Source: a virus
Reading direction: 5' to 3' (one strand)
IMG/VR virus record: IMGVR_UViG_3300009008_000022
Coordinates: 1 to 64,000 of that record
Length of the DNA stretch: 64,000 bases
The position numbers and the translations under genes were made by a program. The notes under the pieces are model-generated. The model did not search any database. It had not been told where the DNA came from and saw nothing but the letters and a program-made list of their open reading frames with translations. Each line of letters opens with the position of its first letter. Position 1 is the first letter of the stretch. Positions 1,816 to 62,183 of the stretch are shown in pieces.

Positions 1816-3549
1816 ATGCTCATTCGTACCAAACAGCTCAACGCCGGCATTCTCGCCGCAAGCGCCGCCGGTCGCGCGCTCATGGCGGACAACTTCTTCG
1901 ACAGCTCCACCGCGGGTGCCAAGTTTGAGGCCAGCTCAATCGCCCTGGCGAAGCTGGCCGAGGCCGTGCTCCAGGCGGACGGCGGGCAGGCGCTCACTGG
2001 CGATCTCCCGGCCGGCAGCAACAAGATCACCGGCCTGGCCGCGGCCACCACGAACGGGGACGCGGTGCGCTACGAGCAGGGGATCCTGGCGGACGGAACC
2101 AACGCCTTCAGCGCCGATCAGAGCATGGGCAGCAACAAGCTCACCAACCTGGCCGCCCCGACCGCGGACGCGGACGCCGCGCGCAAGGTGGACGTGGACC
2201 GCGCGCAGGAAGGTCTGGACGCCAAGGACAGCGTTGCGCTGGCAACCGACACCGCCCTGGCCGCCAACACGCAGGCTGGCACCGGCGTGGGCGCCACCCT
2301 GACCGCGGACGCCAACGGCGCGTTGACCGTCGATGGTGTGGCAGTCGCTTCTGCCGACCGGATTCTGGTCAAGGACGAGTCCTCTGCCCCGAATTGCGGT
2401 ATCTACACCGTCACGCAGACCGGCGACGGCAGCAACCCGTTCATCCTGACCCGCGCGGCGGACGCAGACGGCGACCAGGATAACGTCACCGGCGGCATGT
2501 TCTGCTTTGTCGAGAAGGGCTCGACCAACGCTGACACCGGCTGGGTGCTGACCACCAATGGCGTGGTTTCGGTGGACTCCGACGATCAGAACTTCACGCA
2601 GTTCTTCGGCGCCGCCTCCGTCAACTACGAGGACGGCGACCCGACGCAGATCGGCGCGGACAGCGCCGCCGCACCGGGCTCCAACATGACCGCGGCCCGC
2701 GGCGATCATCAGCACGCGATTGCCACCGGCGCCCCGGATTCCACCCTGGACGGTGCGAGCAGCAACGCGCCTGGCACCAGCAACAACCTGGCTCGTGCGG
2801 ACCATGTGCACGCGCTGGACGTGGGCGCTGTGGCCGACGTTATCCAGCCGGATGATGTTGCGGCCGAGGGCACCGACGACACCCTGGCCCGTGCGGACCA
2901 CACCCACGGGATCTTCTGTGCGGCCCCGACAGCCACCCTGGACGCCGCGAGCACCAATACCGAGGGCGCCGGCACCAGCTTCGCCCGCAACGATCACACG
3001 CACGCTCTGGACGTGGGCGCCGCCGGTTCCACCGTGGACCCGGACGTGGCCGCAGCTCCCGGCACCGACGACACCCTGGCCCGCGCGGATCACGTTCACG
3101 ACATCGGCGTGGCCGCTCCCAGCTCCACCCTGGACGGTGCGAGCAGCAACGCCGAGGGCTCCAGTTCCAACCTGGCGCGGGCCGATCACGTTCACGCTCT
3201 GGACGTGGGCGCGGCGCCGTCGAATCCGGCGGCCACCCCCGTCGAGGGCACCGACGACACCATTGCCCGTGCGGATCACCAGCACGCGCGTGACGTGGAA
3301 GCCCAGGAGAACATCACCACCGAGGAGATCACCGGCAGCGACACCGCGCTGTCCATGACCCTGGGCAGCACCCCGACCGTTGCCGGCAGCGTGCAGCTCT
3401 GGCTCAACGGCGTGTTTCAGGTGCAGGGCGCTGGCAAGGACTACACCGTCAGCGGGACCACGATCACCTGGCTCGCCAGCTCCGGCACGGCGGTGGACAT
3501 GGATACCAGCGACGTGCTGGTGGCGCGCTACAGCAGGGCGTATGCCTAA
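1816..3549 (+). CDS. fibre/appendage protein with DHxH repeats
   Basis: 577 residues, Ala/Asp/Gly-rich, with almost no Lys in the repeat part. Residues 1-200 resemble the head-binding part of phage fibres, with repeated 'G.NKI.nLa.P' turns near 55-110. Residues 297-490 carry seven DHxH motifs in units of about 25-33 residues. His-x-His rows in phage long fibres (for example T4 gp37) coordinate iron along a trimeric needle, so a metal-stabilised trimeric stalk is likely. The last ~70 residues match the preceding 78-residue protein. Its place between head and neck genes fits a head or collar fibre as well as a tail fibre. Confidence 0.75.
   Translation: MLIRTKQLNAGILAASAAGRALMADNFFDSSTAGAKFEASSIALAKLAEAVLQADGGQALTGDLPAGSNKITGLAAATTNGDAVRYEQGILADGTNAFSADQSMGSNKLTNLAAPTADADAARKVDVDRAQEGLDAKDSVALATDTALAANTQAGTGVGATLTADANGALTVDGVAVASADRILVKDESSAPNCGIYTVTQTGDGSNPFILTRAADADGDQDNVTGGMFCFVEKGSTNADTGWVLTTNGVVSVDSDDQNFTQFFGAASVNYEDGDPTQIGADSAAAPGSNMTAARGDHQHAIATGAPDSTLDGASSNAPGTSNNLARADHVHALDVGAVADVIQPDDVAAEGTDDTLARADHTHGIFCAAPTATLDAASTNTEGAGTSFARNDHTHALDVGAAGSTVDPDVAAAPGTDDTLARADHVHDIGVAAPSSTLDGASSNAEGSSSNLARADHVHALDVGAAPSNPAATPVEGTDDTIARADHQHARDVEAQENITTEEITGSDTALSMTLGSTPTVAGSVQLWLNGVFQVQGAGKDYTVSGTTITWLASSGTAVDMDTSDVLVARYSRAYA
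2701..3290 (+). repeat. DHxH-coding repeat tract in the fibre gene
   Basis: Codes for seven DHxH motifs (DHQH, DHVH, DHTH, DHTH, DHVH, DHVH, DHQH; residues 297-490 of the fibre). Two unit types alternate: a 'STLDGASSN.(P/E)G...LARADHVHALDVGA' type and a shorter 'DVAA.GTDDTLARADH.H' type. The DNA is also repetitive, for example GGCACCGACGACACC recurs, which gives material for length change by recombination. Confidence 0.75.
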
Positions 3550-4402: not shown

Positions 4403-5842
4403 ATGGCCCTGATCAAATTGCATGTTGCCGTCAACAGCCTGGACGAAGTGCTAAAACGGTATGATCAAGTCAAGGTCTACCGGAGCACAACCGGCGTGAC
4501 TGGCACCTACTCTGAGATCACCACCGCGGACACCCGGATCAAGCTCCTGGCAGGCCAGGCGCTTTACACGTTCCATGACGCCGCAGGCGACCGCACCTAC
4601 TGGTACAAGACCGCCTATTTCAACAGCGGCGACAGCTCTGAAAGCAGCCAGTCCGACCCCACCCTGGGCGACGACGCCGAGGTGTTGACCGGCATTTTGA
4701 CCATTCAAGAGCTGAAAGACACCTTCTTGTACGGCCTGGATTTGACCGATGATCGGGGCAACGAATACCCTGATATTATGTTTGAATTTGGCATCAGAGC
4801 GGCTATTCAATGGGTGGAAAAACAGCTTGATCTTTTCATCCGGCCCACTTCGAGGGTAGAGCGCCACGACTTTAATTTGCGCGACTATCAAGAGTGGATG
4901 TTTATCCAGCTCGACAAGTACCCCGCGATCAGTTGTGAGAAGGTCGAGATCATCTGGCCGTCTAGCTCTGAGAAGATCTCGTTTCCAACCGAGTGGATCA
5001 GCCTGCAAGCCGACCTGGGCCAGATCAACCTAGTGCCCACGCATGGCACGCTGGCGCAGGCGCTCATGGTGCTGTCCGGCGCTTGGCTGCCAGCTCTGAT
5101 CGGCGGCATGAGCTTCATTCCCAACGCGGTGAGCGTGGAGTACACCGCGGGCTTTCCGTTCGGCGCGCTGCCTTACGACATCAAAGAAATGATCGGGATG
5201 CGCGCCACAAACCCGATCCTAAATACGGCCGGTGATTTGATCGCTGGTGCCGGGATCGCCAACTATTCGATCAGCATGGACGGGATCAGTCAGACCATCG
5301 GCACCACGGCTTGCCTGGCAGGCTCCACCCTGGTGGACGCGCCTGGCGGCCAGGTGGCAATCGCGGAGCTGCACCGGCGAGTCCAGGCCGGCGAAGTGGT
5401 GGAGGTGTACGGCCTGAACGAGCGCACCGGCAAGCGGCGCGTGCAAGAGGTGATCGCGTCGTTTGATAGCGGCAAAAAACAAACGCACGAGCTGCGCATT
5501 GGCAACGGCGGCGTGGTCAGAATGACAAAGGACCACCGCTGTCTTACTGGCTCCGGCTGGCGCACCATGGGTGAGCTAAACCGCGGCACGTTGTTGATCG
5601 ACGGAAAGGGTATGTCCGCGCCGGTGGAGTCCGTTGGCCCTGGCGAGATGGAACAGACGTTTGACCTGGAGATAGAGGCGCCCTGGCACAACTTCAGTGT
5701 AGCAAATTCCTCAATGATTCTGCATAATTCGGCCACAAACGCCGGCTACGGAGCAAGAATATTAAACTACGAGAAACACATCAAGGCGCAGCTCCCGGTG
5801 CTCCGTAAGTTCTACAAGCGCGTCGGCCTGGCGGTGGGGTGA
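4403..5842 (+). CDS. head-tail connector (neck) protein interrupted by a mini-intein
   Basis: 479 residues before splicing, 340 after. Residues 1-85 look like a fibronectin-III-type domain (VKVYRST..G.Y, LYTFHD...YWYKTAYFN). Residues 90-303 plus 443-479 form a phage connector of the gp6-like type, with the usual 'YTAGFPFGALPYDIKEMIG' segment and the 'SISMDGISQTIGTTA / SATNAGYGARI' segment. The latter is split by the intein exactly at its Ser/Thr-rich loop. SD GGGAGG lies 5 nt before the ATG. A gp6-like protein bridges portal and tail, so correct splicing should be needed for virion assembly. Confidence 0.75.
   Translation: MALIKLHVAVNSLDEVLKRYDQVKVYRSTTGVTGTYSEITTADTRIKLLAGQALYTFHDAAGDRTYWYKTAYFNSGDSSESSQSDPTLGDDAEVLTGILTIQELKDTFLYGLDLTDDRGNEYPDIMFEFGIRAAIQWVEKQLDLFIRPTSRVERHDFNLRDYQEWMFIQLDKYPAISCEKVEIIWPSSSEKISFPTEWISLQADLGQINLVPTHGTLAQALMVLSGAWLPALIGGMSFIPNAVSVEYTAGFPFGALPYDIKEMIGMRATNPILNTAGDLIAGAGIANYSISMDGISQTIGTTACLAGSTLVDAPGGQVAIAELHRRVQAGEVVEVYGLNERTGKRRVQEVIASFDSGKKQTHELRIGNGGVVRMTKDHRCLTGSGWRTMGELNRGTLLIDGKGMSAPVESVGPGEMEQTFDLEIEAPWHNFSVANSSMILHNSATNAGYGARILNYEKHIKAQLPVLRKFYKRVGLAVG
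5312..5728 (+). mobile_element. mini-intein, 139 residues, no homing endonuclease
   Basis: In frame within the connector gene, residues 304-442. Block A is CLAGSTLV with Cys1. Block B has the TxxH motif (TKDH) in GVVRMTKDHRCLT. Block F is TFDLEIEAPWHNFSVAN, and block G ends in HN (penultimate His, terminal Asn) followed by Ser as +1 extein residue. All class-1 splicing residues are present, so it should be active. There is no room for LAGLIDADG blocks between B and F, so it cannot home by itself. Removal restores a continuous connector sequence. Confidence 0.93.
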
Positions 5843-6666
5843 TGGCTGAGTTTAAGCCTGAAATACTGACTGGACCGCCGGACGGCGAAAAGCCCACCGG
5901 CGGGCAGCGCGTCGATTACAAGGTCGGCAAGCTCGACAACTTCATCTATACCAAGGGCCAGCGCGCATGGTGGAGCCGCGCAGCTCTGTGCCCCTGCCAG
6001 GGCAACCCAAAGACAGATCAGCCGGCGCTGAATTGCTCGCTGTGCAACGGCAAGGGGTATTGGTACTTCACGCCGCAGCTCGGCGCGACGGCGCAAGAGG
6101 TGGACCTGGCCGGCAACCCGATTGAAGTAAACGAGGCCGCGGACGCCGTTGGCGTGGTGGTAATGATCACGTCTACCACGCAGGATCCGCAGATCTATGA
6201 GCACTTCGGCCAGTGGCACTTTGGCACCGCCAAGCTCACCGCGCAGAGCCCCAACCGCCTGGGCTACCGGGACAAGTTCTCTTGCCGGGACGCTGAAATG
6301 TGGGCAGGCCAGCTCATCACCTCAGACGGCGGATCCGAGATCTCGGTGGTAGGCGAGCAGAGCGACAAAGGGCTATGGAGTCCGGCCACGCGGGTGACGT
6401 TGCTGCGCAGCGTGGCGACGGTTTACCGCGAGGGAGATGATTTTGAGCTGACCAAGCAGGGCACGATCCGCTGGCTCGGCGCACCACCGGCCGCCGGTAC
6501 GATCCTGTCCTACTACGGCGCGTTTCATCCGGTCTGGGTCATTATCGAGTTTCCGTTTGCCTACCGTGACACCCTGGTGGAAAAAAAGCGGCAAGCTGAC
6601 AACCTGGCAGACCAGCACGCGCAGCTCCCCATGAGCGCAGTTGTTAAACTGGATTTTCTGGCATGA
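5842..6666 (+). CDS. neck/head-completion protein with zinc-finger cysteines
   Basis: 274 residues; the ATG overlaps the connector stop (TGATG). Four cysteines, C50-x-C52 and C65-xx-C68, in a 'CPC..NPKTDQPALNCSLCNGKGY' segment match a zinc-knuckle pattern common in phage neck proteins encoded after the connector. The rest is beta-rich, including a 'TLLRSVATVYREGDDFEL...TIRWLG.PPAAGTILSYYG' segment typical of virion proteins. It overlaps the next gene by 4 nt. The role as head-tail adaptor is inferred from order and pattern. Confidence 0.7.
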   Translation: MAEFKPEILTGPPDGEKPTGGQRVDYKVGKLDNFIYTKGQRAWWSRAALCPCQGNPKTDQPALNCSLCNGKGYWYFTPQLGATAQEVDLAGNPIEVNEAADAVGVVVMITSTTQDPQIYEHFGQWHFGTAKLTAQSPNRLGYRDKFSCRDAEMWAGQLITSDGGSEISVVGEQSDKGLWSPATRVTLLRSVATVYREGDDFELTKQGTIRWLGAPPAAGTILSYYGAFHPVWVIIEFPFAYRDTLVEKKRQADNLADQHAQLPMSAVVKLDFLA

Positions 6667-8470: not shown

Positions 8471-10810
8471 ATGGCAGCTTCGACACTCTACTTTAATGGG
8501 CGGCTGTACCGGCGGCCTGGATCATACTCGACTGTGGACGCCAGCGCCCTGGACGCGGTTGGAATCAGCGCCACCGGGATCGTGGCCGTGGTGGGCACCT
8601 CGAAGGGCGGCAAGCCCTACAGCGCGGTGTCCAGCTCCGACGTGAAGGGCACGCTCCAGGCCAGCACCAGCCCCGGCAAGGCGAAGGGGTTTTTCCAGAA
8701 GGGCAGCCAGATGATCGAGGCTGAGAGCTTCCTCTTTAACCCGTCCGCGGACGAGGATATTGAAGGTGGCGCGCAGAAGGTGTTTTGGGTCAAGCCCAAC
8801 AAGAGCACCGCCTCGACGCTGGCAATGGCAAACGGTGACGGGCAGGCCATTGTCTACACGTCCGAGGACTACGGCTACCATACTCAGCAGATCTCCATTG
8901 CCCAGGGCGCCGGCACCTCCAAGGGCAAGCTGATCACAATCACCGGGCCGTACCAGGGCGTGCAGACCACCGAGGCGTTCGATAACGTGGGCGGTGACGT
9001 GCTGTTTACCTGGAAGTATCTCGCCACAGCTCCGGCCGGCGGGTTTACCACGATCACGGCCACCGCCAGCGCCACCGCGCTGCTTGCTGCTTTCACCCGA
9101 GACAGCGCCAGCCTGACCGGCGAGATCGATGCGCAGATCACCGCGGGCAACGCGATTGAGCTGTCCAGCGCCGACGCGGGCGACACACAGGTGGTCCGTG
9201 TTTACGGCATGGACAACGCCGCGACTCCGGCCGCGCAGACCGAGGAGATCACCCTGAACGGCACCACCGCGGTTTTGGGCACCGCGGTGTGGAGCAAGAT
9301 CCACGGGATCAGCATCCCGACCGCACCGGCCGGCACCGTGACCGCCAAAAACGGCGCAGGCGGCGCCACCGTGGCGACCCTGACGCCGGCAGCTCTGACC
9401 AAGGGCCTGTCGGTCTGTTCTGACTGCCCGGTGGGCAAGGGCACCCTGTCGGTCAAGGCCAGCGGCGCCTCCACCGACAAGGTTGGCGTCTACGGCCTGA
9501 GCGCCAGCGGCACCTTGCAGTACGAGGTGATCACCCTGGCAGGCACTACCCCGGTTGCGGGAACCTCCACATGGAGCCGGATCGATTATGTGGCAATGGG
9601 CGCGGTTGCCACCGTGACCGTGACCGTGAGCGGCACCGCGGCGGCCGTGTATTTCTCCGGCTACGACACGATCCAGAAGGCGGCGGATTACATCAACGGC
9701 TTGGGGGGCATGACCTTCACCGTCGTGACCGGCAAGACCGGCTACCTGCTAACCAACCTGGACCGGATCAGTACCGGCGTGAGCATCAAAACCACGGCGT
9801 ACAGCTTCTACGGCGATCTGTGGGCGATCATCGAGAAGATTAACGCGGAGTCCGGCCTGGTGACGGCGGCCCGCGGCAGCGTGGGCTCCGGCGTGCCGAC
9901 CAACGCGGCGGCGCAGTACATGGCCGGCGGCAATGAGGGCAGCTCCACGCCAGGGCAGGAAGGCACCCCGACCGCCACCGCGGCAGACTGGCAGGCAAGC
10001 CTGGATCTGCTCAAAAAGGTGTTCGTCAACACCGTGGTGGTTTTGACCCCGGACGCGGCGGTCCATGCGCAGCTCAAGGCCCACTGTGCCTATATGGGCG
10101 GCGCCGGCCAGATGGAGCGCGACGGGATCGTTGGCGTGATGAATGCCGCGAAAACCGGCATGGCGACAAAGACCGAGATCAAGAGCCAGATCGTTGCGAT
10201 CAACTCGCGGCACCTTCGCGTGGTGGCGCAGCGGGTCCAGCGTTACAACGCGGCCGGCAGTAAGGAAACATTCGAGCCCTACATGGCGGCGCTCCTGGCG
10301 GCCGGTATGCAGGCCGGGTCCGAGGTGGGCACCAGTTTGACCAACAAGCTGATGAGCACCTTGAAGATCGAACAGGACAGCTCGTGGAATCCCGCCGACG
10401 ACGCGGAGGAAATGCTGGAGGCCGGCTTGCTGTTTGGCGAGGTGGTTGACGGCCAGGGCATCCGGTGGGTCCGCAACGTCACGAGCTGTGTTAGCTCAAA
10501 CAACCTGAGAGACACCGACGCGAACGTCAACGAAGCGGTTAATGTTTTTGTCTACAACTTCCGTTCCGAGATGGAAAGGGCCGTGGGCGCCCGTGGCTTT
10601 GCTTCGACCGTAGCCGCCACCGATGGTGTGGCGCGGGAAAAGCTCCGCGTGCTCACCGGCGTGGCAATCGTGACCTGGCGGTCGCTGAACATCACGCTCA
10701 CCCTGGACGTGCTTGCCATCGACGTTGAGGTCGCGCCGGTTATCAGCATCAACTTTGTGCGAAACACGATCCATCTGGTGAGCGCACCGATCAGCAACGT
10801 CGCCAGCTAA
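8471..10810 (+). CDS. contractile tail sheath protein
   Basis: 779 residues, long for a sheath. Residues 1-45 are the classical sheath opening (FNGRLYRRPGSYS..D...ISATGIVAVVGTSKGG). The C-terminal half has the sheath core (MRVVAQRVQRYN region, NLRDTDANVNEAVNVF) and a terminal 'LAIDVEVAPVISINFVRNTIHLV' strand pair for subunit interlacing. The extra length is in the middle: two similar beta units near residues 235-300 and 330-395 (each '.V.VYG....TLQ.E.ITL.GTT.V.GT..WS.I'). These would decorate the tail surface. Next to tube and chaperone genes, as in other myoviruses. Confidence 0.9.
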   Translation: MAASTLYFNGRLYRRPGSYSTVDASALDAVGISATGIVAVVGTSKGGKPYSAVSSSDVKGTLQASTSPGKAKGFFQKGSQMIEAESFLFNPSADEDIEGGAQKVFWVKPNKSTASTLAMANGDGQAIVYTSEDYGYHTQQISIAQGAGTSKGKLITITGPYQGVQTTEAFDNVGGDVLFTWKYLATAPAGGFTTITATASATALLAAFTRDSASLTGEIDAQITAGNAIELSSADAGDTQVVRVYGMDNAATPAAQTEEITLNGTTAVLGTAVWSKIHGISIPTAPAGTVTAKNGAGGATVATLTPAALTKGLSVCSDCPVGKGTLSVKASGASTDKVGVYGLSASGTLQYEVITLAGTTPVAGTSTWSRIDYVAMGAVATVTVTVSGTAAAVYFSGYDTIQKAADYINGLGGMTFTVVTGKTGYLLTNLDRISTGVSIKTTAYSFYGDLWAIIEKINAESGLVTAARGSVGSGVPTNAAAQYMAGGNEGSSTPGQEGTPTATAADWQASLDLLKKVFVNTVVVLTPDAAVHAQLKAHCAYMGGAGQMERDGIVGVMNAAKTGMATKTEIKSQIVAINSRHLRVVAQRVQRYNAAGSKETFEPYMAALLAAGMQAGSEVGTSLTNKLMSTLKIEQDSSWNPADDAEEMLEAGLLFGEVVDGQGIRWVRNVTSCVSSNNLRDTDANVNEAVNVFVYNFRSEMERAVGARGFASTVAATDGVAREKLRVLTGVAIVTWRSLNITLTLDVLAIDVEVAPVISINFVRNTIHLVSAPISNVAS

Positions 10811-59790: not shown

Positions 59791-62183
59791 TGGCGAAGGC
59801 AGAGAAGAAGGGCGCCGCCGCGGCCGGAGTCCGGTACGTCATGGACTGCCTGCTGGTGGAGGCCAAATTCGAGGTACAAGGGGCGGTGCACCTGTCCATG
59901 ATTAAGGACCGGAGCGTGAGCGTTAAAACCTCAGAGATCGTCGCGCGCCTCAAGAAGTTCGCCCAGGCCAAGCTGGAGCTGGACCCGCGGTTTCGCGCCG
60001 GTTGGGGCAGCTCGCCAGTGACCGATGAGCAGCTACACGCAATCGTCGGGCCGTTGGTTGAAATGCGGGCCGGAAAGATCGTCAAGGGCGGTGAGCGGAT
60101 CTGGTGCCAGGGAGGGCCAGCTCCGCGCCCTTTCGTTAAGGGCGAGCGGCCGTCCGGCGCAGGCTGGCAGGCCGTACCAAATACCAAATTTGGCGGGTAC
60201 AGGCGCCGCGGCAAGGGCGGCAAGTGGGAGTATTGGTATCCCGAAAAGCACGCCAAGTTGGGCCATGGGTTTGAAGCTGAGCATGTGGAGCTGCGCGAAA
60301 AGCGCGACCGCGTTGCGGCCGACATAGAGCGCCGCGGCCTGGGGGTGGAGTACGAAACGAGCCCAGGCCGGTATCTGGTTGTCATGCCGGACCCGTCGCA
60401 CGCGGGCAAGGTCCGCACGCAGAGCTACGATGAGCACGGATTCTCTGGGCACCGCACCTATGACGATCTGCCAGCTCTGGCCGCGGACGTTGCCAAGTGG
60501 GAGTACAACGGGATCAAGCCAGCTCAGGCCGGCACGCTAGACAAGCTCGCCCAGGGCGAGCCATGGCGCCAGGCCGCCCTTCACCAGCAAGCGTTAAGGG
60601 AGATCGAAAGCCTGGAGAGGCAGGGGCAGGACGTGAGCGAGCTACACGCGGTCCTAGCTCGCAAAGGGTCAGAGGCGCTACTGGCGCACCTGGGCAAGTC
60701 GGAGGCGCCGCGGTTGCTCGCCCTGGGCGACCGGTTGGTCAAGGCTGGCGTTGGAGCGGAGCGGCAACAGATCATGTTTGCAGCTCGCCAGCGCAAGCAG
60801 TACCCGCCAGGTTACAAGCCGGAGCACAAGGTCAAGGGAAAGACGGTCAAGGTCCACACTAACGGCTGGCAGGCTATCCCCAAGGGGCACAAGGGAGGCT
60901 ATCGGCGCCGGACCCGCGGCGGGTGGGAGTACTGGTATCCAGACCATCACGCGCGGCCTGGGCTACACGCACCGAGCGTGGAGCCGCACGGCGGCACGTT
61001 GGCCGAAGCGGTGGAGCTGCGCGAAAAGCACGGCGTGCCGATCCATGTAAGCTGTGGCGCTGGGGTGGACAGTACCGGTTTGCTGGTAGGCATGTATCAG
61101 CAGGGGATCCGGCCGGATGCGGTTGTGTTTGCGGACGTGGGGAACGAAAACCCGCGCACTTATATGTTCCTTCCCCACCTGGACGCATGGCTGAGATCGG
61201 TTGGCTTCCCGCCCCTAACCGTGGTGCGAAACAAGCCGACCGTTAGCGCCTCAGAAATGGTGAGAGAGGCGCGCGGAAAGACTTACGCCACGTTGGAACA
61301 GAACGTGGTGCTGCATGAAACCCTGCCGTCAATCTCACTGGCCGGTGGCCGCGGTTGCAGCCAGAAGTGGAAACACCAGCCTCAAGAAGCCTGGGCAAAC
61401 CAGCGCGAGGATTGCCAGTCGGCATGGGAGCAGGGCTTCAAGGTCACGAAGCTAATCGGCTACAGCTCTGACCCGGCGGACAAGCGCCGGCCGGATATGC
61501 CGGACGATGAGAAGTATCACTATCAGTACCCGTTGCGTGAATGGGGGTGGGATCGGGAGCGGTGCAAGAAAGAGATCGCCGCGGCCGGTATGCCCGTACC
61601 AGTCAAGAGCGCGTGCTGGTTTTGCACAGCGACCAAGCCGCACGAGCTGCGCCGCATAGTGAGCGAGTACCCCGACATCGGCCGCCGGATAATCCAGATG
61701 GAGGCCGCCGCGGAGGACAACCTACGCAAGATCCGCGGCCTGTGGGGCACACCGGTGAAGGGGGCCAGGGGCGCGCTAAAGAAGCCGGGAACAATGGCAG
61801 AGTGGATCATCGGGGAGGAGTTGCTGCCGGAGTTTAAGGGCCAGGATATTGTTGACCCGTGGTGGCGCCAATCAGGCCAGGTGACGCCCGGTAACGAGCA
61901 CTTCAAGGTGGCGGACGTGATGCACCTTGTAGACGCGCCACCGCCGCCGGTGAGCCCGCTTGAGGATCTAAGCGGCCTGGCTCCGGTGGACACCGACGAG
62001 CTGCGCGAGCAGAGCAAGGCGCGAAAGCGAGGTGGTGCGGTTCAGACCAGCTTGTTTAAGAGCGCGCCCAGGGCGACGATGAGGGACGGAGATCAAAAGT
62101 TCTGGGCAGCCATGGCATTGATCCAGGCGTTTGATCAATTCGACAGCATGGGCAAGGACGGCAAGCGGCATGGATCTGAATGA
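59790..62183 (+). CDS. polyvalent protein: two EYWYP motifs and a PP-loop (PAPS-reductase-like) ATPase domain
   Basis: 797 residues; ATG overlaps the previous stop (TAATG). Shared segments end at WEYWYP near 151 and near 384. The PP-loop domain covers ~405-640: VSCGAGVDSTGLL (S421-D427) binds ATP, VVFADVGNENPRTY follows, with conserved cysteines C523 (GCSQKWKHQP) and CWFC (609, 612) and PLREWGWDRERC. PAPS-reductase-like phage proteins are known but their reaction is unclear; sulphur or nucleotide chemistry related to DNA or RNA modification is possible. The tail (650-797) is polar. Confidence 0.85.
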   Translation: MAKAEKKGAAAAGVRYVMDCLLVEAKFEVQGAVHLSMIKDRSVSVKTSEIVARLKKFAQAKLELDPRFRAGWGSSPVTDEQLHAIVGPLVEMRAGKIVKGGERIWCQGGPAPRPFVKGERPSGAGWQAVPNTKFGGYRRRGKGGKWEYWYPEKHAKLGHGFEAEHVELREKRDRVAADIERRGLGVEYETSPGRYLVVMPDPSHAGKVRTQSYDEHGFSGHRTYDDLPALAADVAKWEYNGIKPAQAGTLDKLAQGEPWRQAALHQQALREIESLERQGQDVSELHAVLARKGSEALLAHLGKSEAPRLLALGDRLVKAGVGAERQQIMFAARQRKQYPPGYKPEHKVKGKTVKVHTNGWQAIPKGHKGGYRRRTRGGWEYWYPDHHARPGLHAPSVEPHGGTLAEAVELREKHGVPIHVSCGAGVDSTGLLVGMYQQGIRPDAVVFADVGNENPRTYMFLPHLDAWLRSVGFPPLTVVRNKPTVSASEMVREARGKTYATLEQNVVLHETLPSISLAGGRGCSQKWKHQPQEAWANQREDCQSAWEQGFKVTKLIGYSSDPADKRRPDMPDDEKYHYQYPLREWGWDRERCKKEIAAAGMPVPVKSACWFCTATKPHELRRIVSEYPDIGRRIIQMEAAAEDNLRKIRGLWGTPVKGARGALKKPGTMAEWIIGEELLPEFKGQDIVDPWWRQSGQVTPGNEHFKVADVMHLVDAPPPPVSPLEDLSGLAPVDTDELREQSKARKRGGAVQTSLFKSAPRATMRDGDQKFWAAMALIQAFDQFDSMGKDGKRHGSE

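Follow-up and report, generated by a model that had tools for sequence, protein, structure and literature searches.

A single open reading frame in the DNA of an uncultured phage joins the sequence of a virion neck protein to an internal segment of 139 residues, and this raises the questions of what the segment is, which part of the neck protein it interrupts, and how it came to lie there. The frame is found in the first 64,000 nucleotides (positions 1 to 64,000, hereafter the window) of the 81-kb IMG/VR record IMGVR_UViG_3300009008_000022.

The neck adaptor gene and its insert

The features of the locus are collected in Table 1. The extein matched the neck adaptor of phage 812 (8q01) by sequence (E=4.2e-15) and, when the AF2 model of the whole precursor was compared with the PDB, by fold (E=6e-14); a RecA mini-intein was found separately in the same comparison (E=5e-4). 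Together with the stopper-like and sheath genes downstream, these matches identify the gene as a neck adaptor of the type of phage 812 gp96 and SPO1 gp6.3 (PHROG 772), in agreement with the initial annotation, which had named a head-tail connector as the host of the insert. The sheath and neck genes form the head/neck/tail module of a myovirus, and the window derives from an uncultured contractile-tailed phage. A stopper with a tetra-cysteine loop has been described (PMC12886913); in the window this motif was located at +146 nt from the adaptor gene, and no endonuclease gene was present between the adaptor and stopper-like genes. The name of PHROG 772, "tail fiber protein", was rejected, being contradicted by the phage 812 neck structure, in which the same family is the adaptor. 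Herelleviridae RefSeq records (e.g. gp6.3 in NC_011421) are also labelled "tail fiber protein", a spreading misannotation.

Table 1. Coordinates of the features of the neck adaptor locus in the window
Feature	Position	Strand	Basis
Neck (head-tail) adaptor precursor gene, 479 residues, PHROG 772	4403..5842	+	PHROG 772, E=4.9e-43; phage 812 adaptor 8q01
N-extein, 303 residues	4403..5311	+	Alignment with homologues
Conserved beta-hairpin SISMDGISQTI, directly before the junction	5258..5305	+	AF2 strands 286-292 and 295-301
Predicted class 1 mini-intein, 139 residues, without endonuclease domain	5312..5728	+	Splice residues, PF14890, Mtu RecA match, AF2
Block A with Cys1 (CLAGSTLVDAPGG)	5312..5350	+	Alignment with the intein-like N half of the Brochothrix phage BL3 terminase
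Block B, TxxH = TKDH, intein residues 72-75	5525..5536	+	Sequence; Mtu RecA alignment
Block F (TFDLEIEAPWHNF; Asp118, His126)	5657..5695	+	Sequence
Block G, SSMILHN, ending with penultimate His138 and Asn139	5708..5728	+	Sequence
C-extein, 37 residues, from Ser+1 (SATNAGYGARI)	5729..5839	+	Alignment; stop codon 5840-5842
Neck stopper-like gene, tetra-cysteine motif CPCQGNPKTDQPALNCSLCNGKG	5839..6666	+	PHROG 1004 virion structural protein, E=7.4e-21
Contractile tail sheath gene	8471..10810	+	PF04984, E=1.2e-10; PHROG 279, E=5.2e-38

The insert is in frame, starts with C-L-A-G, and ends with L-H-N. The residue set of class 1 inteins that had been read from the sequence at the outset was complete within the 139 residues: Cys1 (codon TGC, 5312-5314), TKDH, the Asp and His of block F, and the terminal His-Asn followed by Ser+1 (HN|S at 5723-5731; Ser+1 is TCG). 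A split intein was ruled out by the one continuous ORF from 4403 to 5842. Hmmscan matched the insert to the Pfam Intein_splicing family (PF14890) with E=2.3e-6 and 28.0 bits, under the curated cut-off of 35.8; a search of the window's own record with the PF14890 profile had missed it through a limit of its first step. A stronger sequence match was obtained with the RecA mini-intein of Mycobacterium tuberculosis (Mtu; E=2.6e-10). No endonuclease family of Pfam was matched within the insert, which confirmed the initial reading in this respect and distinguishes the element from full-length homing inteins. GC3 was 0.755 in the intein and 0.749 in the N-extein, and the intein is therefore not compositionally foreign.

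Since the intein part was poorly resolved in the model of the whole precursor, a second AF2 run was carried out on the intein alone; the best of five models, based on an alignment of three sequences, was of moderate confidence, with a pLDDT of 73 (the others, 43-56) and a pTM of 0.53. This predicted structure had the HINT fold. Foldseek returned 57 PDB matches with E≤0.001, of which the 50 best were all inteins or bacterial intein-like (BIL) domains: the Mtu RecA mini-intein was first (E=3e-9, TM 0.73), and the Npu DnaE and gp41-1 inteins were also matched (TM 0.70-0.76 across the top inteins). The three Mtu RecA structures (the PI-MtuI splicing domain; PDB 2in0, 3igd, and 5i0a) shared the fold with TM values of 0.72-0.76 and E values of about 1e-8 to 3e-9, and this mini-intein, like that of the window, is of class 1 and has ~139 residues as crystallised. 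The crystallised form is, in fact, a cut-down version of an endonuclease-bearing intein in RecA, whereas the element in the window is naturally small, is located in a virion neck protein, and is followed by Ser+1.

From the splice residues, sequence matches, and modelled fold, we infer with high confidence that the insert is a class 1, cis-splicing, endonuclease-free mini-intein in the neck adaptor gene. By the standard steps of class 1 inteins, the precursor of 479 residues would be translated as a single chain, Cys1, aided by TKDH, would begin the N-S acyl shift, Ser+1 would accept the N-extein, and Asn139, aided by His138, would cyclise. The products would be a free intein of 139 residues and an adaptor of 340 residues (303 + 37), the spliced length already proposed in the initial annotation and predicted here from the exact junction.

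The junction in relatives and other insertions in the same loop

Single-sequence scans of IMG/VR with the N-extein or the intein as query returned no relatives, but an extein alignment as query did, retrieving 368, of which the best 80 were used for the alignment and tree. Intein-free homologues were thereby checked for joining at the predicted boundaries, and the boundaries held. Among the best 80, 76 were continuous exactly at the predicted junction, mostly as TT[S/A/Q]|SA.., and the remaining four were interrupted beside it by intron-like insertions; all 56 non-redundant intein-free homologues had zero residues between the junction columns. Cultured-phage records matching the adaptor numbered 619, most of them outside the junction alignment, which contained 11 cultured-phage homologues: ten (SPO1, BM15, LP-125, LP65, 812, Riverwalk, DAC19, LE1, A9, and SIOphi) joined without a gap, and the eleventh, Dolphis, was too divergent at the junction to judge. 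A window of 20 columns centred on the junction ranked 11th of 220 in conservation, in line with the early assignment of the insertion to a conserved loop. The intein was absent from almost all relatives (best 80 of IMG/VR); no close relative was found to share it, and the search for its close kin gave only Brochothrix phage BL3.

When IMG/VR was scanned with the junction pattern, a second intein was found at the identical junction in two records, G001 (locus L093:5609-5941) and G002 (L097), whose 99.97% identity over 36.8 kb makes them practically a single phage, and in which the adaptor was 40% identical to that of the window. This intein has only 111 residues (CLHPD...GIVHN). The intein of a third phage, G003 (L111:14058-14390), likewise has 111 residues; it is 52% identical to the G001 intein, and the adaptors are ~70% identical. 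The 111-residue inteins agree with that of the window in gene family, insertion site, Cys1, TxxH, HisAsn|Ser, and the lack of an endonuclease domain (C1, TxxH, and HN|S are kept in both G001 and G003), but differ in sequence (~24% identity) and length (28 residues shorter), and lack the F-block His as well as a segment located between blocks A and B. Their NG86 dN/dS was ~0.3, with synonymous sites near saturation. The gp41-1 intein has been described as among the shortest known (PMC11476470); its crystal chain has 127-128 residues, and the 111-residue inteins, which are smaller, are candidates for very small working inteins that could serve as minimal splicing domains. The C-junction patterns SATN and SAMYG revealed no further inteins; the N-junction pattern also matched three viral loci (L094-L096) that were discarded as other genes, and three matches in a junction-pattern scan of genome contigs were all due to chance.

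In the extein tree, the window, G001, and G003 were placed together with intein-free phages in one group of nine rows, within which no branching was resolved (88/83). For this reason, independent insertion of the window's intein and the 111-residue inteins was not adopted; one old insertion with losses and two insertions are both possible.

Two insertions of another kind lie next to the intein position. In L088, L090, and L091 (about 5603-6005), ~400 nt with frame-breaking stops are inserted between GGT and ACGACACAA, 9 nt upstream of the intein position, and L083 has the same allele without the insertion. In L089 (about 1455-1860), a different insertion of ~400 nt is found 8 nt downstream, within the Met codon (AT|G). 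Both, judged by eye, show the U preceding the 5' site and the G preceding the 3' site that mark group I introns. The L089 insertion, with a weak match to Rfam Intron_gpI (E=0.015; 18.8 bits against a gathering score of 50), is likely a group I intron, while that of L088, with no match, is only consistent with one. Rfam detected no intron in the window.

In Staphylococcus phage SA11 (NC_019511, Silviavirus; L012, 28-2584), the adaptor orthologue is also split, here ~27 codons upstream of the intein site. The inserted DNA encodes a TnpB-like protein (OrfB_IS605, E=1.6e-12; Cas12f1-like TNB), and no intron reached the Rfam gathering threshold there. In several other records, the match was confined to the last 28 residues, suggesting an interruption at that point like the one in SA11.

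The neck adaptor loop is a conserved target with more than one entry of inteins and introns: in different phages, a single stretch of 17 bp in a structural gene holds self-removing elements of at least two kinds. Inteins and group I introns are, as a rule, inserted at conserved sites (PMC2814812). The convergence of both on one essential phage gene has precedents in the ribonucleotide reductase of SPbeta and the terminase of Campylobacter phage IBB_35, each with an intein and an intron in one gene (PMC3322345); unlike these, the three elements described here occur in different phages, within 17 bp, in the neck adaptor.

Neighbouring endonuclease genes and the spread of the inteins

The intein probably arrived in this phage by homing, the endonuclease having since been lost or being encoded separately. 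The initial annotation had reasoned that an intein of this type cannot home and that its persistence argues for vertical maintenance or a conditional role; this was not supported, as intein phages with the same insertion site carry free-standing endonuclease genes nearby. In G001, an ORF for a NUMOD3+DUF559 nuclease is located 37 bp downstream of the intein-bearing adaptor gene, and in G003 a PHROG 3339 "homing endonuclease" (E=1.8e-30) is encoded two genes past the adaptor. In the intron-bearing relatives, as in L083, their intron-free near relative, the gene directly downstream encodes a GIY-YIG-type "homing endonuclease" of PHROG 314. At uninterrupted loci, the stopper is generally the next gene: its motif was within 167 nt of the adaptor in 28 of the 33 in which it was detectable.

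It is possible that the mini-inteins in the neck loop are mobile by collaborative homing, through free-standing endonucleases that cut the intein-free loop, as is established for group I introns without an endonuclease (PMC2814812, PMC10448857). This concerns the mode of spread and is compatible with a cis-splicing mini-intein. Because both of the other intein phages carry such genes nearby, movement of the window's intein with an endonuclease acting in trans is possible. On the other hand, L083 has the GIY-YIG gene and yet no intron, and the partial genome of the window, unlike those of the phages with 111-residue inteins, yielded no recognised homing endonuclease gene: Pfam homing endonuclease families were not matched (E≤0.01) in 51 further predicted proteins of the 81-kb record, no PHROG "homing endonuclease" appeared among the matches listed for this record (two hits, phrog_452 and phrog_93, are named only "endonuclease"), and tblastn with the nucleases of G001, G003, and the intron group gave nothing at E<0.9. 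The record is a linear fragment that may be incomplete, which bounds each of these absences. The broader proposal, that the neck adaptor loop is a hot spot whose mini-inteins, the unusually small ones of 111 residues included, are mobilised in trans by neighbouring free-standing endonucleases, extending collaborative homing to inteins, is made tentatively and with some doubt. Testable questions follow from this locus: why a single site attracts both inteins and introns, and whether a mini-intein that lacks an endonuclease can spread by means of a neighbour's nuclease.

The insertion site in the neck and comparison with known inteins

In phage 812, short loops of the adaptor (residues 265-272) are in contact with the DNA inside the neck channel, where Met269 and Tyr270 adjoin its sugars, and a beta-hairpin, of which Glu254 contacts the DNA backbone, lines the channel (PMC12886913). 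The phage 812 protein sequence reads T265-Q266-S267-A268-M269-Y270-G271-G272, so that the position of the intein corresponds to Q266|S267. In the AF2 model of the window's precursor, the junction is at 303|443 and the last helix begins at 449. By this alignment, the intein lies in the equivalent of the DNA-contacting loop, after the hairpin that lines the channel and before the last helix. With twelve copies left unspliced, the channel would be crowded or plugged, and splicing is therefore very probably required before a working neck can be assembled.

A dependence of this kind might be taken for a switch, in which a signal controls splicing and splicing in turn controls neck assembly or DNA packaging, since an adaptor left unspliced in a functional loop should be non-functional. 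The same logic fits any intein at a conserved site, however, and insertion-site preference explains the position (PMC2814812); with no conserved regulatory feature found and the intein missing from almost all relatives, we consider such a switch improbable, and nothing was found in favour of the conditional role in virion assembly suggested in the initial annotation. That the insert is instead a BIL or pretoxin HINT domain, which cleaves or processes without ligating, is very improbable: the weak PT-HINT match (E=6e-4) and the shared HINT fold are outweighed by stronger intein matches, the complete class 1 residue set with Ser+1, and a conserved position, 11th of 220 windows, at which relatives join exactly, while BIL domains occupy non-conserved regions (PMC2814812).

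The element is thus most likely an ordinary cis-splicing mini-intein, representing a new host gene and insertion site for a known kind of element. The neck adaptor had been called an unusual host. In the literature searched, mostly without subscription papers, no neck adaptor was found reported to contain an intein, which agrees with that view; inteins in the portal, as well as the terminase, of mycobacteriophages are already known (PMC5050341), and to this extent the claim is weakened. The mycobacteriophage inteins resemble that of the window in that they lie in morphogenesis proteins near functional centres and are thought to block assembly if unspliced, but they differ in host protein, and those in terminase include full-length inteins with endonuclease activity (PMC5050341). 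The virion neck adaptor now joins the intein-hosting proteins, and the function of the insertion site can be read from the structure of the phage 812 neck. New here are the second mini-intein family of 111 residues, the nearby insertions, the mapping to the DNA-contacting loop, and the nuclease genes beside or near the neck genes that hold the 111-residue inteins.

The closest relative of the intein in phage records was the intein-like N half in the terminase of Brochothrix phage BL3 (L103/L108; 35% identity over residues 1-97, E 3e-7), which differs from the window's element in its host gene and in that the frame ends. The BL3 terminase large subunit (from 1201 in L103) terminates ~121 residues after Cys1 (CVTGDTLVDTDEGQVPIKEL), and the element resembles the N-terminal half of an intein that is split or broken. 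A match to the minor capsid protein of Gordonia phage Vivi2 was rejected as an intein, having neither a Cys1 start nor a C-terminal splice junction.

Two further observations concern the rest of the record. Just upstream of the adaptor module, the window encodes a virion-protein-like ORF of 577 residues (1816-3549) with many ADHxH-type repeats (DGASSN..GTS..LARADHVHALDVGA). The end of the record, from window position 62131 to record position 81185, consists of four back-to-back, very long ORFs of 1642, 858, 1632, and 2208 residues.
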